From: Inhella crocodyli
GTDB taxonomy: Bacteria; Pseudomonadota; Gammaproteobacteria; Burkholderiales; Burkholderiaceae_C
NCBI RefSeq assembly: GCF_004004565.1
Contig: NZ_SACM01000006.1
Coordinates: 62,001-126,000 of the forward strand
Reading direction: 5' to 3'
DNA length: 64,000 nt
Made by a program: the position numbers and the translations under genes. The notes beneath the pieces are model-generated. The model searched no databases. It saw nothing but the letters and a program-made list of their open reading frames with translations, and had not been told where the DNA came from. Positions 23,133-27,688 of the stretch are shown piece after piece. Position 1 is the first letter of the stretch. Every line of letters begins with the position of its first letter.

Positions 23133-23262
23133 GCCTAGATCGCGGCCGCTTAGGCCGGCGCTTCGGGCACGTCCGATTCCCTCCCACCCTCTGAGTGCCC
23201 ACCCGGGCACGCGCCCGGTTATCGTGGGTCACTGCCTGGCGCCGCTGGGCCCAGGAGCCCCC

Positions 23263-24447
23263 GTGCCCAAACCCGTGCCCAGCACGCCCCCCCGCGCCAC
23301 CTTGACGGGCGCCGCCCGGCTGGCCACCCACGGCACCTTGGGCCTGGTGCGCTTGGTCGAGGCCATGCACGCCCGCATCCAACGGCCGCCCGGTATTCCC
23401 GGCCCCAAGGATGGGCGCACCCGGGGCCTCACCGGCCTCGTGTACCGCAGCGTGCACGGCGTCACCCGCTTGGTGGGCGGCAGTGCCGAAGCGTTGCTGG
23501 GCTTGCTGCCCGAGGCCGTGGCGCAAGGCCCCCGCAGCCCCCGGCACGACGCCGTCGTCGCCGCTTTGAATGGCGTGCTGGGCGATCACCTCGCCGCCAC
23601 CCACAACCCCTTGGCCCAGTCCATGCAGCTGTGCAGCGAGGGCGAGCCCCTCGTGCTCAGCCGCGCGGCGCTGGCCCAGCGATTCCCCACGCCCAGCGCC
23701 GGCGTGCTCGTGCTCCTGCACGGCCTGTGCATGAACGACCGCCAATGGCGCCGCAAGGGCCACGACCACGGCGCCCAGCTGGCCGCCGCGCTGGGCCTCA
23801 CGCCCGTCTACCTTCGCTACAACACCGGCCTGCCCGTGGCCGACAACGGCCGCCAGTTCGCCGAGCTGATGGCCAAGCTGCTGCGCGTGTGGCCGCACCC
23901 GGCGCCGCGCGTGGTGCTGCTGGCCCACAGCATGGGCGGCCTCGTGGCGCGCAGCGCCTTCCACCAAGCCGGGCGCGCCCCCTGGACGCGCCGCGTCAGC
24001 GACCTCGTCTTCCTGGGCACCCCGCACTTCGGCGCCCCGCTGGAGAAAACCGGCCACGGCGTGGACCTGCTGCTGGACGCCGCCCCCTACGCCGCACCCC
24101 TGGCCCGCCTGGGCCGCGTGCGCAGCGCCGGCATCACCGACCTGCGCCACGGCCTCGGCCCCGAGGTGGGCCTGCCCCCCGAGGTTCGCTGCTGGGCCAT
24201 CGCCGGCACCTTGGGCGCCGACCCGGACGCGCTGCCACCCAAGCTGCTGGGCGACGGCCTGGTGCGCCTGCCCAGCGCCCTGGGCCAGCACCGCGACCCG
24301 TCCCGGCGCTTGCCCTTCCCGCCCGAGCGGCAGTGGGTGGCCGCCGGCGTGGGGCACCTGGACTTGCTCTGCAGCAAGGCGGTGGGGAACCGTGTGGCGG
24401 CTTGGTTGCAGGCTGCGGCAGGCGAGGGGGCCGCGCCCGCGGCTTGA
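23263..24447 (+). CDS. Lipase-like alpha/beta hydrolase
   Basis: A 394-residue serine hydrolase of unknown substrate. LVLLHGLCMNDRQWRRKGH gives the oxyanion region, LLAHSMGGLVARS the GxSxG nucleophile elbow, and LVFLGTPHFGAPLEK a typical triacylglycerol-lipase/PGAP1-like segment; GVGHLDLL likely contributes the catalytic His. The N-terminal 115 residues are extra and helical, with no signal peptide I can defend. I chose GTG 23263 because AGGAG lies five bases before it; an in-frame GTG at 23224 has no such site. It is the last ordinary high-GC gene before the cassette island. Confidence 0.8.
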   Translation: MPKPVPSTPPRATLTGAARLATHGTLGLVRLVEAMHARIQRPPGIPGPKDGRTRGLTGLVYRSVHGVTRLVGGSAEALLGLLPEAVAQGPRSPRHDAVVAALNGVLGDHLAATHNPLAQSMQLCSEGEPLVLSRAALAQRFPTPSAGVLVLLHGLCMNDRQWRRKGHDHGAQLAAALGLTPVYLRYNTGLPVADNGRQFAELMAKLLRVWPHPAPRVVLLAHSMGGLVARSAFHQAGRAPWTRRVSDLVFLGTPHFGAPLEKTGHGVDLLLDAAPYAAPLARLGRVRSAGITDLRHGLGPEVGLPPEVRCWAIAGTLGADPDALPPKLLGDGLVRLPSALGQHRDPSRRLPFPPERQWVAAGVGHLDLLCSKAVGNRVAAWLQAAAGEGAAPAA

Positions 24448-24639
24448 ACAGCCCGCGCCCAGGCCCCGGGCGGTCGTGATGCCGCTGGCATCATGAGGGA
24501 CGCTGCATCGCGTTGCTGGGTTTCACCACGTTTGTCACAACGCGCCGCATTTGTCGGCTTTTTAGTACGGGATGAAAGTCCACATCTGGCCGGATTTGTC
24601 GATATGAATCAAGCACTTGCCCTCGATCATGCCCGCCGA

Positions 24640-24698
24640 GTTAGGGCGCACGATGCGGTGTTAGGCGGCAGCGCCTGTCGCCCTACAACACGTTAGGT
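24640..24698 (+). other. Integron attI-like recombination site
   Basis: The segment is laid out like attI1 of class 1 integrons as I remember it. GTTAGGG (24640) and GTTAGGC (24660) stand where the DR1 and DR2 integrase sites would be. GTCGCCCTACAAC (24677) corresponds to the L site, and GTTAGGT (24692-24698) to the crossover R site of type GTTRRRY. The stem-loop expected of attC is absent. Cassette genes follow immediately. No intI gene precedes it: only 192 bases separate it from the lipase stop. The call depends on remembered attI1 sequence and needs an alignment. Confidence 0.6.
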
Positions 24699-24706
24699 GG
24701 CAAACA

Positions 24707-25135
24707 GTGATCGACTTTGAGATCAAGCTGAAGAGCCTGTGGCGTTCTAAGGATGGCGTAGATATTGAGCGACCGTTCCTGTATTTCATTTCTGTGAAGT
24801 CGTCGGATGGCGCGGTGTACACGTACGTTGGTAAGGCGCGTGACGAAGCTCGACTGCACGAGTACCGCCGGAATATGCTCAAGATTCATGCGCGGCGCGA
24901 ACGTGGAAAGTCGCAAAACTATCGCGCTGTTCACTTCGCTTTGTACTCCGCGCTAAGAAATGACTGGGAAATTGACTTCTTCCCCTTGGAGAACTGCGAA
25001 AAGGGGCAACTAAACGAGCTTGAACGACAGCGCATTCGTGAGCGTTGCTGCAATCTCAATGGAGCGCGTACGTGGCGCGTTGCTCAACTCGATCAGGTGT
25101 CACTTCATGGATTGGTGCGCACGTCAGCCACCTAA
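24707..25135 (+). CDS. Cassette gene 1: small protein with GIY-YIG-like motif
   Basis: A 142-residue protein with noticeably lower GC than its neighbours. FLYFISVKSSDGAVYTYVGK followed by ARDEARLHEYRRNMLK resembles the start of GIY-YIG nuclease domains (two-strand motif, then conserved Arg), but the catalytic Glu/Asn is not certain, so no activity is claimed. GTG 24707 is preceded by AGGTGG, which is part of the attI R site, so the recombination site supplies the ribosome-binding site. The stop codon TAA falls inside the next attC (ACCTAAC), as is usual for integron cassettes. It would be read from a promoter in or before the attI region. Confidence 0.7.
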   Translation: MIDFEIKLKSLWRSKDGVDIERPFLYFISVKSSDGAVYTYVGKARDEARLHEYRRNMLKIHARRERGKSQNYRAVHFALYSALRNDWEIDFFPLENCEKGQLNELERQRIRERCCNLNGARTWRVAQLDQVSLHGLVRTSAT

Positions 25136-25198
25136 CCTGTCATTGCAGCCGACCCTTGCCAGCTGCGCCGTCCGGTCGGCTGAACTCCAACGTTAGGC
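25130..25198 (+). other. attC recombination site 1
   Basis: A 69-base attC: R'' core ACCTAAC (25130-25136), then an inverted repeat CAGCCGAC ... GTCGGCTG as L''/L' arms, and R' core GTTAGGC (25192-25198), which fits GTTRRRY. The typical unpaired bases (GAACTCC in the right arm) interrupt the stem. The folded bottom strand would be the integrase substrate. Boundaries are good to a base or two. Confidence 0.85.
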
Positions 25199-25211
25199 CG
25201 AAAATTCATCT

Positions 25212-25448
25212 ATGAAAAAGACTGTCGTTGCGCTCTTTTGGCTCGCCCTTGTGAATGCTGCGTTTGCCTGGCTGTATGCCGAATATTCGGTTAGGTTCAA
25301 TCCAAAGATTACTCATGATGAGGCTTATCGCTTTGGCGAGACCTATGGCATGGCGTTCTTTGTCATCTCCATAGTGGTTGTGACTTTCCTTGCCGCGAAG
25401 AACAAGCTACCAGGCGCGCGAGAGCGAACGCCAAACCACACCGCCTAA
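25212..25448 (+). CDS. Cassette gene 2: small two-helix membrane protein
   Basis: A 78-residue protein. A hydrophobic N-terminal segment (KKTVVALFWLALVNAAFAWL) could be a signal or helix, and a second helix lies near residues 46-63 (GMAFFVISIVVVTFLAAK). Between them is a polar stretch of about 25 residues. No family is recognised. The start is 13 bases after attC site 1 and the stop TAA is inside the GCCTAAC core of attC site 2, so the gene fills one cassette exactly. Its GC is lower than the flanking chromosome. Function unknown. Confidence 0.75.
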   Translation: MKKTVVALFWLALVNAAFAWLYAEYSVRFNPKITHDEAYRFGETYGMAFFVISIVVVTFLAAKNKLPGARERTPNHTA

Positions 25449-25512
25449 CAACGCCCTTGAGCCAACTCGCGTCGGCAGCGCCGCCGTTCGCGGCTCAGCT
25501 TCAACGTTGGAC
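25443..25512 (+). other. attC recombination site 2
   Basis: A 70-base attC: R'' core GCCTAAC (25443-25449), arms TTGAGCC ... GGCTCA with an unpaired AG/CTTCAA region, a GC-rich variable loop, and R' core GTTGGAC (25506-25512), which fits GTTRRRY. It ends cassette 2 and contains its stop codon. Confidence 0.8.
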
Positions 25513-25581
25513 GTCAGAAATGCACCAATCTGTCTCGCACCGATTCCTGGGGGCTCTGAAACTGTCTCACATGTATTTCCA

Positions 25582-25815
25582 ATGAAGAAAGTTTTAGTTC
25601 TTGTATTATTGGCGTACGGCGGCTGGGTTGCGTTGAAAACTGCGGCCATATACCAGAATGGAGACCACCGCGCTGCATGTCGGTCGGAGCTTCAGTCAAA
25701 ATCACCGGTTGATACCAAGACAGCAACGCAGAGCGAAATGTTGGAATGGGCGATTGAACTTGAGTCGTGCATAGGCAAGCGGCGCGGTTTCCTGGAGAAA
25801 CTTTATGGATACTGA
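25582..25815 (+). CDS. Cassette gene 3: small membrane-anchored protein
   Basis: A 77-residue protein with one N-terminal hydrophobic segment (KKVLVLVLLAYGGWVALKTA) and a soluble remainder holding two cysteines (AACRSEL and ELESCIGKRRGF). These could form a disulphide if exported. No family is recognised. ATG 25582 lies 70 bases after attC site 2, more than for the other cassettes. An R'' core (GCCTAAC at 25892) is found 76 bases after the stop, so this cassette's attC has been damaged. Lower GC than neighbours. Function unknown. Confidence 0.6.
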   Translation: MKKVLVLVLLAYGGWVALKTAAIYQNGDHRAACRSELQSKSPVDTKTATQSEMLEWAIELESCIGKRRGFLEKLYGY

Positions 25816-25891
25816 TTCTTCCAAGAGCCTGCACGCTTCGTTTTTGTTTGGCGGTGCCATTGATCCAACTGGCCAGATCTCACGAACTGAC

Positions 25892-25918
25892 GCCTAACCC
25901 TCCACAGGGACTCCCCAT
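25892..25918 (+). other. attC site 3, broken after its first core
   Basis: GCCTAAC (25892-25898) matches an attC R'' core and is at the right place to close cassette 3. No matching L' or R' follows; after 20 more bases the sequence turns into an IS3-family end. The site has probably been interrupted by that insertion and is now inactive. Confidence 0.5.
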
Positions 25919-26118
25919 TGACCCTGCCCATGTTTTGTGGACACTCCAACCCTACTGCAGGAGTGTTCGATGGGAATGCCCGGTCTGGAGCTATCTCGAA
26001 AATCTGGTCCAGGTGGAAATAGAGAATTCCCAGCAACGGAGTCCCTACATGAAGAAGTCCCGATTCACCGACAGCCAGATCGTGGCCGTGCTCAAGGAGG
26101 TCGATCTTGGTGCCAAGG
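25919..26118 (+). mobile_element. IS3-family insertion sequence remnant
   Basis: The segment opens with TGACCCTGCCC and TTTTGTGGACACTCC, which resemble the left ends of IS3-family elements. At 26049 it encodes MKKSRFTDSQIVAVLKEVDL, the characteristic start of an IS3-type OrfA transposase. The match stops after about 23 codons (LGAK); the helix-turn-helix remainder, OrfB and the right end are absent. It is therefore a dead 5' fragment about 200 bases long. It lies inside the cassette island and breaks attC site 3. Confidence 0.7.
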
Positions 26119-26249
26119 GCGGCTCAGGCTACCTAGCGGTCATTTTTCAGCGACAGATTGAAGAAAATCGGCAACGAATCAAAGACGTCAAGGGATCGAA
26201 GCTTAGACCTCGGAATTTAGGCAAACCAGTGATTTCGGCTGCGTTGCTG
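26119..26249. other. Cassette-derived remnant without an intact gene
   Basis: This low-GC stretch lies between the IS fragment and a partial attC. One frame gives a charged peptide ending at TAG 26217-26219 (RSFFSDRLKKIG and onward), possibly the tail of a cassette gene whose start was lost. No start codon with a ribosome-binding site is visible. Confidence 0.35.
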
Positions 26250-26286
26250 CCCAACCACTTATTGCGACCGACCCAGGCCGGTTAAA
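26250..26286 (+). other. Partial attC site 4
   Basis: GCCCAAC (R''-type core) is followed by TATTGCGACCGACCC, very close to CATTGCAGCCGACCC at the same place in attC site 1. The loop and right arm are missing; GTTAAAT (26280-26286) fits GTTRRRY but is too near. It reads as the left half of an attC and marks the end of the island. Confidence 0.5.
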
Positions 26287-26298
26287 TAAAACGCTGGA

Positions 26299-26781
26299 AT
26301 GCCCAGTAAATCCGTTTCCGCCGGGCTCGAAGCGGCCGTCTTTGTCAGCATGGGCCTGGTATGCGCCTTTTACGTGCTGTGGCTTGCGGTGGACGTTTGG
26401 AAGGTGCGGCAGTCGCTCGATGGGACGAGGGTGGAGGGCCGGGTTGTCGCCGTTCAAGTGCGAGACGGTGGGCGCAAGGTGGGCCACTGCCTGGACCTTG
26501 CTTACACCTACGACTTCGAAGGCGGTCATTTCTCGGGCCGGAACCGCAGCTTTGGAACCGCGCCGTGCGGGCCACAGGCGCGGGTTGAGGAACTGGCCCG
26601 CGCTTACGTGCCGGGGGCGCCCATCGACGTCTACGTCAACCCGAAGGACATCTTCGAATCGGTGTTGCACCCCGGGGTGATGGAGGGCGGGACGTGGACG
26701 TCAATCGGCGTGTTTGGCCTGCTCGCCGTGGCTTGCGGGTGGCTCGCCGTGGTGACGTTGCGCGACGAACAGCGCGCCTGA
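26299..26781 (+). CDS. DUF3592-like membrane protein
   Basis: A 160-residue protein with helices near both ends (EAAVFVSMGLVCAFYVLWLA and SIGVFGLLAVACGWLAVVTL) and a beta-rich middle. YTYDFEGGHFSGRNRSF and PIDVYVNPKDIFESVL fit the DUF3592 pattern, in which a small extracytoplasmic domain is held by two helices. Function is unknown. It begins 13 bases after the broken attC 4, so it may be the last cassette gene, but its GC is high like the chromosome and no attC follows. The stop at 26781 is 58 bases from the convergent AraC gene. Confidence 0.6.
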   Translation: MPSKSVSAGLEAAVFVSMGLVCAFYVLWLAVDVWKVRQSLDGTRVEGRVVAVQVRDGGRKVGHCLDLAYTYDFEGGHFSGRNRSFGTAPCGPQARVEELARAYVPGAPIDVYVNPKDIFESVLHPGVMEGGTWTSIGVFGLLAVACGWLAVVTLRDEQRA

Positions 26782-26839: not shown

Positions 26840-27688
26840 TCAGCGCCCCTGCCGGTACGCGCGGGGCGTGGTGCCGGTGCGCCGCCGGAACTCGGCGTTG
26901 AAGTGCGACAGGGTGGCAAAGCCGCAGCGCTGGGCCACCTCGGCCACGGGGCGGTCGGACTGGCGCAGTTGCAAGCAGGCTTCGCCCACGCGCAGGTCGT
27001 TCACGTAGGCGCTGAAGGGCTTGCCCACCAGGCGCTGGAAGCTGCGCGCGAAGGCGCCGGGGGTGACGTGCAGGTGGGCCGCGGCCTCCTGCGCGCTCAA
27101 GGGCGCGCCGAGGTTGGCCTGCACCCAGGCCAGCAGGCCGTCCAGCCGGCGCTGCACGGTGGCCTTGGGGCGCGCCACGCGGGGGGCGCTGCGGTCGATG
27201 GGGGCCAGCGCGTCGTCCGGGGCATCGGCCAGCGTGCCCAGCAGCGCCAGCGCGCCGCCCAGCAAGGCCAGGCCTGGGGCGTGGGGCAGGGCGGCCAGCG
27301 CGGCGCTGGTGCGCGCGTGCAGGGCCCCGCGCACGCGCAGGCCCTGGCCGGCGCGCTGCAGCAGGGGCAGGGCCTGCTGGCGCCACTCGGGCAGCAGGGC
27401 GGCGGCGGCCGTCAGGTCCAGCTGCAGCACGGTGGCGCGCACGCCCTCGGGGGGCTCGCCGCGGGTGTGCCAGGTGTGCGGCAGGCCCGGGGCCAGCAGC
27501 ACCAGGTCGCCGTCGTCAAAGGGCGCCACGTCGCCGCCCACGAAGCGCAGGCCCGCGCCGCGTTCGATCCAGGTCAGCTCCAGCGCGTCGTGCGCGTGCA
27601 GCGGCGCGGCAAAGGCGGCGAGGTGCAGGCGCAGCAAGCGCACGCTGTGCTGCGGGCCGGCGACGGATGACTCCCAGCTGACCTTCAT
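26840..27688 (-). CDS. AraC-family regulator of the glycan cluster
   Basis: A 282-residue activator-type regulator. The N-terminal cupin-like sensor (APLHAHDALELTWIERGAGL ... LLAPGLPHTWHTRG) would bind a small ligand, probably a sugar. The C-terminal AraC domain has two helix-turn-helix units (SAQEAAAHLHVTPGAFARSF and VAEVAQRCGFATLSHFNAEF) followed by RTGTTPRAYR. It is transcribed away from the GH13 gene, with 95 bases between the two starts, the normal arrangement for local control. The inducer is inferred to be a mannose- or glucose-containing oligosaccharide. Confidence 0.92.
   Translation of the reverse strand: MKVSWESSVAGPQHSVRLLRLHLAAFAAPLHAHDALELTWIERGAGLRFVGGDVAPFDDGDLVLLAPGLPHTWHTRGEPPEGVRATVLQLDLTAAAALLPEWRQQALPLLQRAGQGLRVRGALHARTSAALAALPHAPGLALLGGALALLGTLADAPDDALAPIDRSAPRVARPKATVQRRLDGLLAWVQANLGAPLSAQEAAAHLHVTPGAFARSFQRLVGKPFSAYVNDLRVGEACLQLRQSDRPVAEVAQRCGFATLSHFNAEFRRRTGTTPRAYRQGR

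Follow-up and report, generated by a model that had tools for sequence, protein, structure and literature searches.

A 64,000-nucleotide stretch of DNA from an Inhella species (hereafter the window, on contig C14 of a 3.76 Mb genome in 17 contigs) carries, between a lipase-like gene and an AraC-family regulator gene, an integron platform that has kept its attI site, has no integrase gene (intI) and heads a short array of cassettes. We consider it probable that the intI-less, attI-headed arrays of this lineage are satellites served in trans by a resident integrase. The sequence itself shows (i) the anatomy of the platform, (ii) the absence of intI, (iii) the repetition of the attI-headed layout, and (iv) cassettes that an integron and an intI-less array of a relative have in common, with site-exact ends.

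The attI-headed platform in the window

The head of the array was recognized with a sequence model of nine aligned intI-attI spacers from five genomes of the genus, from which the window was excluded and in which the integron on contig C9 of the same genome was included. The model matches positions 24541-24696 with 64.1 bits (E 4.6e-19), the sole match in the window at E ≤10, and the spacer of the window measures 167 bp, compared with 156-167 bp in the nine integrons. The attI itself reaches a score of 58 against intI-linked attI sites, attained by none of 10000 random segments ending in GTT and drawn from loci cleared of true attI. A chance resemblance to attI was considered and is ruled out by the spacer match and the random segments. 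Since a full-length intI-attI spacer is present, an integron platform lost its integrase here, as opposed to cassettes having landed at a random site. The initial annotation, made from the letters of the window, had proposed an attI-like site starting at 24640 and an active integron that once sat here; the site is a genuine attI, the conserved part begins to the left of that position, and the complete spacer confirms the former platform. The features of the array, with attC scores from the covariance model described below, are the following:

24489-24494, minus strand: possible remnant of the intI start codon, tentative (CATCAT on the plus strand), in the intI start region of the MAFFT spacer alignment
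24531-24633, plus strand: leader separating attI from the missing intI, on what was once the intI promoter side, of normal length, with the spacer match from 24541
24568-24583: decayed LexA-like box, CGGGATGAAAGTCCAC, from a LexA motif search of the leader
24634-24698, plus strand: attI, core GTTAGGT at 24692-24698
24707-25135, plus strand: cassette 1 gene, 142 amino acids, no Pfam family
25130-25198, plus strand: attC 1, complete, 84.3 bits, E 7.1e-22
25212-25448, plus strand: cassette 2 gene, 78 amino acids, no Pfam family, membrane-like by eye
25443-25512, plus strand: attC 2, complete, 48.5 bits, E 1.5e-11
25582-25815, plus strand: cassette 3 gene, 77 amino acids, no Pfam family
25805-25897, plus strand: short frame, 30 amino acids, its end being the attC half-site
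25892-25898, plus strand: 5' half of a damaged attC (GCCTAAC), read directly
25995-26123, plus strand: insertion-element fragment, 77% identical over 129-130 bp to elements of two other genomes
26249-26299, plus strand: degraded, shortened attC, 19.0 bits, E 0.0047 in the window and 0.28 genome-wide

From left to right, the island thus begins with a possible intI start codon and a leader in which the LexA box has decayed; attI and two complete cassettes come next, followed by a third cassette that ends in an attC half-site, a piece of an insertion element and the remains of a last attC. No intI reading frame is left at this locus: the spacer alignment extends nearly to the intI start codon, the leader lies 83 bp from the lipase stop codon, and to the left of 24531 neither an intI-frame remnant, except the possible start codon, nor a TIGR02249 match was found. 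A whole-genome search with TIGR02249 returned eight matches at E ≤0.001, all located on C9, in agreement with the earlier statement that the window holds no intI. The leader box is presumably a former LexA site; neither CTG-N10-CAG nor the strict form CTGK-N8-MCAG was found in the leader of the window.

The attC sites were scored with a covariance model of 33 sites from arrays of other genomes, none of them from the genome of the window. The two complete sites that the initial annotation had placed at 25130 and 25443 were recovered, with E-values that rule out chance, which had been considered for them; its two damaged sites correspond to the shrunken site at 26249-26299 and the half-site at 25892-25898, and its three small genes fill the spaces as described, accompanied by the 30-codon frame. 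A fourth covariance match in the window is the opposite strand of attC 1. Among the marks of a complete integron, the locus displays attI and a one-way arrangement, in which three attC matches share their orientation behind attI; there is no intI beside attI and no LexA-controlled integrase promoter, the leader being without the box. With two complete attC sites and no integron integrase nearby, the locus also has the composition of a cluster of attC sites lacking integron integrase (CALIN).

A Pfam search of the cassette gene proteins returned nothing at E ≤10. The cassette 1 gene shows a 36% identical frame on two Vibrio plasmids; a search of 298 other family genomes gave no match, and viral contigs yielded no confirmed one. 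Its product may resemble a GIY-YIG nuclease. The insertion-element fragment, found about 100 bp beyond the attC half-site, matches an element that is multi-copy in one of the two genomes concerned and that, judging from its reading frames, we presume to belong to the IS3 family. The attI may likewise resemble attI1 of class 1 integrons.

Recurrence of the layout in Inhella and other genera

Six genomes of the genus were compared, comprising that of the window (G000), Inhella sp. LE19-195.1D (G001), I. gelatinilytica 4Y10 (G005) and three others, of which G002 is a single contig. An intI match above the cut-off occurs in all six genomes, with two such loci in four of them. In the genome of the window, the single above-cut-off match, on C9, falls into three pieces in three frames, and the same split pattern is obtained by tblastn with the I. 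gelatinilytica integrase, so that the only integron integrase of this genome appears, in the assembly, to be broken twice by two frame changes. In G003, two integron platforms, on C5 and C6 (L095, L088), show intI and attI 95-97% identical in different surroundings, and one intI of the pair is disrupted by a repeat, some 270 bp long, which is also found near the other copy.

The spacer model yields 27 attI matches at E ≤1 over the six genomes, 10 beside intI (two of them broken), 2 beside a truncated intI and 15 without an intI match. For nine of these 15 orphan sites an attC lies within 0.9 kb on the cassette side; 4 are truncated by a contig end, and 2 lack an attC match, which is not proof of absence, as the genome-wide attC searches scored up to 150 candidates per genome. 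All four multi-attC arrays found in the genome of the window are headed by attI; the array on C9 has the broken intI, and those on C10 (attI at 180460-180610), C11 (322187-322275) and in the window have none. The array of the window is one of three attI-headed intI-less arrays in its genome.

Across the six genomes, 13 intI-less arrays or lone attC sites have a visible head, and an attI homologue forms it in 11 cases, two of which (G002 at 3022 kb and G003 C14) were missed by the spacer model and recognized by reading. The initial annotation had taken an array that keeps attI without intI to be rarer than a free cluster of attC sites; in Inhella attI heads are the prevalent form, and the layout is also seen in other genera of the family. 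Two lone weak attC sites (G000 C10:238525 and G003 C4:125323) and the arrays with a head close to or at the end of a contig (G005 C23 start, G005 C2, G003 C9, G003 C11 and G001 C11) are not counted among visible heads. Of 17 heads or orphan sites, 15 score at least 26 (two exactly 26), the best of the 10000 random segments scoring 26. The other two of the 13 heads, both in G002 (82 kb and 2350 kb), share a 105-bp sequence, termed type P, whose similarity to attI is not significant, 672 of the 10000 random segments scoring as high. The eight attC loci found in G002 consist of two with intI and attI, four with orphan attI and two of type P.

The type P copies (G002:C1, approximately 86.2-86.3 kb and 2354.86-2355.0 kb; L225, L229) contain a 13-bp inverted repeat, are 95% alike over their last 60 bases or so and both precede intI-less arrays; one of them is directly followed by a cassette whose identity to a counterpart in the intI integron of G002 is 99%. 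In G005, C2 (L220) and the start of C23 (L053) carry, before the first cassette, a 132-bp repeat with an inverted repeat and the end GTTAG. Duplicated attI units have the attI core at one end and are variable at the other. A sequence starting TTGAACTAAACCGC follows the attI core at G001 C104, C76 and C142 and at G005 C5, C17 and C18 (contig ends). This common sequence was considered as proof of activity in trans and left unused, as it is also found at G001 C79, where there is no attI, which makes it more likely the end of a mobile element; it looks like one that targets attI.

Outside the genus the layout recurs. The model, trained on Inhella spacers, matches in 28 of 150 family genomes at E ≤0.001 under strict filters; 16 of the 28 genomes match more than once, and 3 are Inhella. 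Two genomes of other genera, G012 (a single contig) and G034, show 28 and 27 attC matches, respectively, and no integrase match at E 1e-60; in the arrays examined there, intI is seen only as pieces. An attI is common to 7 of the 11 heads examined in G012 (at the 4267 kb head over about 45 bases only), and a leader-attI unit of 282-286 bp recurs in three of the heads, with 93-96% identity. Outside Inhella, G012, G034, G018 and G015, 36 of 38 attI matches were fetched, two at contig ends being omitted, and intI was sought beside them by tblastn with ten integrases at E 1e-6. A full-length intI adjoins 10 sites and a partial or split one adjoins 9 (a contig end truncates one of these); no intI was found beside the other 17, where a very divergent one could have escaped the search. 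On the intI side, 16 of the 17 have at least 2 kb of room, and an attC is found on the cassette side of 13 of these 16, at a distance of 2.5 kb in one case. At L286 (G028:C23), an attI-like site at 2030-2167 stands in mid-array, with attC matches on both sides.

Candidate explanations: service in trans, independent decay and relocation

In the favored interpretation, one SOS-controlled integrase made elsewhere in the chromosome would recombine cassettes at several attI sites. With the integrase supplied from elsewhere, the intI of a satellite and its LexA-controlled promoter would be free to decay, while attI would remain constrained. A LexA-controlled integrase promoter is a feature of many integrons, and promoters without a good LexA box often accompany non-functional integrases (PMC8946536). 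The rival interpretation is a graveyard, in which several complete integrons were gained or duplicated and each lost intI independently, the orphan attI sites being inert and the cassettes dating from the time of their own intI. Intermediate states fit such decay: a frameshifted intI (G000 C9), the insertion of about 270 bp in an intI (G003 C5), an intI cut to its first part (G001 C104 and C76), and the partial or split genes at 9 of the 36 sites of other genera.

What independent decay explains poorly is the sharing of cassettes. In G002, cassettes of 552, 438 and 367 bp occur, 99-100% identical, both in the intI integron at 786 kb and in the intI-less array at 2350 kb, about 1.57 Mb apart and in a different order, and identity ends at the recombination cores or within a few bases of them; such site-exact ends are expected from integrase action and not from ordinary recombination. 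In G012, in addition, a 607-bp stretch with a whole cassette is 99.7% identical in two attI-headed arrays of a genome with no integrase match at the threshold given above, which also counts against inert arrays; the stretch directly follows attI in one array and lies deeper within the second.

The attI sites provide the second line of argument. Separate comparisons of attI (its final 58 bases and the core) and of the leader covered 13 orphans and 11 intI-linked or intI-truncated sites; G005_C19 and G001_C38 (core out of view) and G001_C16 (attI truncated at the contig end) were left out. The identities of attI and leader between orphan and resident integron are 0.97 and 0.64 for G003_C26, 0.98 and 0.62 for G005_C17s, 0.90 and 0.71 for G005_C5, and 0.87 and 0.57 for G002_225k; G000_C11 resembles an integron of G002, with 0.84 and 0.57. 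Where attI identity is at least 0.89 between intI-linked or truncated sites, as in four pairs, the leaders stand at 0.82-0.94. The identity of attI exceeds that of the leader by at least 0.19 in 5 of the 13 orphans, a retention of attI beside a decayed leader that counts against the graveyard, and the mean gap is 0.16 in orphans and 0.07 in intI-linked or truncated sites. The strict LexA-like box is present in 10 of 11 intI-linked or truncated spacers versus 1 of 13 orphans (Fisher p 9e-5, uncorrected for kinship and, the sequences being related, a guide only).

Several observations weigh against service in trans. The cassette-sharing array of G002 is headed by type P, which is not significantly attI-like, and the array of the window has no cassette in common with other arrays of its genome. 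Of the four intI-linked or truncated pairs, three draw on the same three sites, two with truncated intI, and intI-linked sites themselves keep attI better than the leader on average (0.07). The gap is at most 0.18 in 8 of the 13 orphans, the leader being slightly better kept in G005_C18b; the orphan of the window is among those eight, with attI at 0.75 and leader at 0.64. A loose CTG-N10-CAG occurs in four orphans, in G005_C23 near the usual place. The attI of the window is 0.75 identical to that of G003_C5i, of another species, versus 0.62 to the resident attI on C9, a better fit abroad than at home that the graveyard accommodates. Finally, gene conversion over short tracts could likewise maintain the similarity of attI copies.

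Satellites are preferred over the graveyard because the platforms are common and, in several genomes, well matched to the resident attI; independent decay is, in our estimate, unlikely as the general account. The resident integrase would then act at the orphan attI sites of the lineage. The suggestion of the initial annotation that another integrase serves the locus is plausible at that level, where the relatives support it, and fares worse for the window itself, with its attI nearer to that of another species and its unshared cassettes. Since the only intI of the genome appears frameshifted, the array of the window is probably frozen now, and activity today is unlikely.

The flanks of the locus bear on how the platform came to be there. 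The neighboring genes are the following:

23224-24447, plus strand: left flank, alpha/beta hydrolase (lipase-like) gene, Pfam PGAP1-like, E 2.6e-9
26299-26781, plus strand: DUF3592 gene, cassette or host gene, Pfam E 3.5e-11
26840-27688, minus strand: right flank, AraC-family regulator, Pfam HTH_18, E 4.4e-23

The guanine-plus-cytosine (GC) content is 0.51-0.57 in 500-base segments over 24500-26499 and 0.66-0.80 in the flanks, bearing out the lower-GC island first described between the lipase and AraC genes. An Rfam scan of the window at the gathering threshold gave no match, and a tRNA search of the window found none. The island is missing from the matching lipase-AraC interval of Inhella sp. 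LE19-195.1D, and the possibility raised at the outset that it is ordinary sequence conserved in all relatives does not hold. A clean empty site was not found, as the interval of LE19-195.1D is occupied by other genes, by eye an RRM protein gene and an arfB-like gene. Identity to LE19-195.1D is 84% on the lipase side (window 23292-24408) and 97% on the AraC side (26846 onwards), and this unequal likeness of the flanks suggests exchange by recombination, with a breakpoint near 26846.

Relocation, in which recombination or a mobile element brought the platform here from another place or strain, whether its array came along or not, and intI was lost meanwhile, is compatible with service in trans and in itself somewhat unlikely. 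The different genes between the same lipase and AraC genes of LE19-195.1D and the unequal flanks speak for it, as does the orphan attI of G001 most like that of the window, which sits at a different locus; on the other hand, no mobile element was noticed on the attI side on reading, terminal repeats not having been searched, and there is no trace of how the segment moved. A further alternative is that the cassettes entered the lipase-AraC interval at a random secondary site (attG) through an integrase acting in trans, the attI-like sequence being fortuitous. Insertion at attG has been described (Loot et al. 2024, via PMC12444791 and PMC12901181), and in G002 the two type P heads could still be explained in this way; for the window it is highly improbable and is refuted by a head that is a full-length intI-attI spacer homologue, with a score that no random segment reached.

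Relation to known integron systems

Integrase-less attC clusters are already known, and their mobilization in trans has been stated (PMC12444791). The clusters are roughly as frequent as complete integrons, with 2961 and 2760 in one survey, and have been proposed to be degraded integrons (PMC9024848). Within one open-licence literature collection, neither attI heads as a rule on integrase-less arrays nor a paper joining Inhella and integrons was found. IntegronFinder 2.0 does not detect attI outside class 1 (PMC9024848), so that the head of the window would be invisible to it, and this is one likely reason why such heads were not found. If clusters often keep a constrained attI, an integrase encoded elsewhere may still bring cassettes into many of them, an uptake that current software, which does not model attI outside class 1, would overlook. 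We put forward tentatively, with slightly less than even confidence, that in many Burkholderiales genomes one SOS-induced integrase serves its own attI and several intI-less attI-headed arrays; if so, captured genes would come under different local promoters, and many catalogued "degraded" attC clusters would be working outstations.

The locus resembles a CALIN, the label given by integrase-finding pipelines to at least two attC sites without a nearby intI, but differs in the recognizable attI and leader at its head. With sedentary chromosomal integrons it shares attI, a leader and cassettes with attC sites of the family found in complete Inhella integrons, whereas intI is missing from the locus and several such platforms occur per genome. 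As in Xanthomonas integrons with an inactivated or deleted intI, the platform outlives damage to intI; in Xanthomonas, however, intI, where retained, lies downstream of ilvD, and other intI-less arrays are found elsewhere, for which the accessible part of the source reports no attI (PMC12444791). Insertions at attG likewise involve cassettes that lie outside any complete integron and an integrase supplied in trans, yet attG is neither attI nor attC and such an insertion point is unlike attI, whereas the head of the window is an attI. Finally, the delta-attI cassettes of class 1 and 2 integrons also carry attI away from intI, but there a partial attI replaces attC inside the array (PMC12901181), in contrast to the window, where attI stands at the head.

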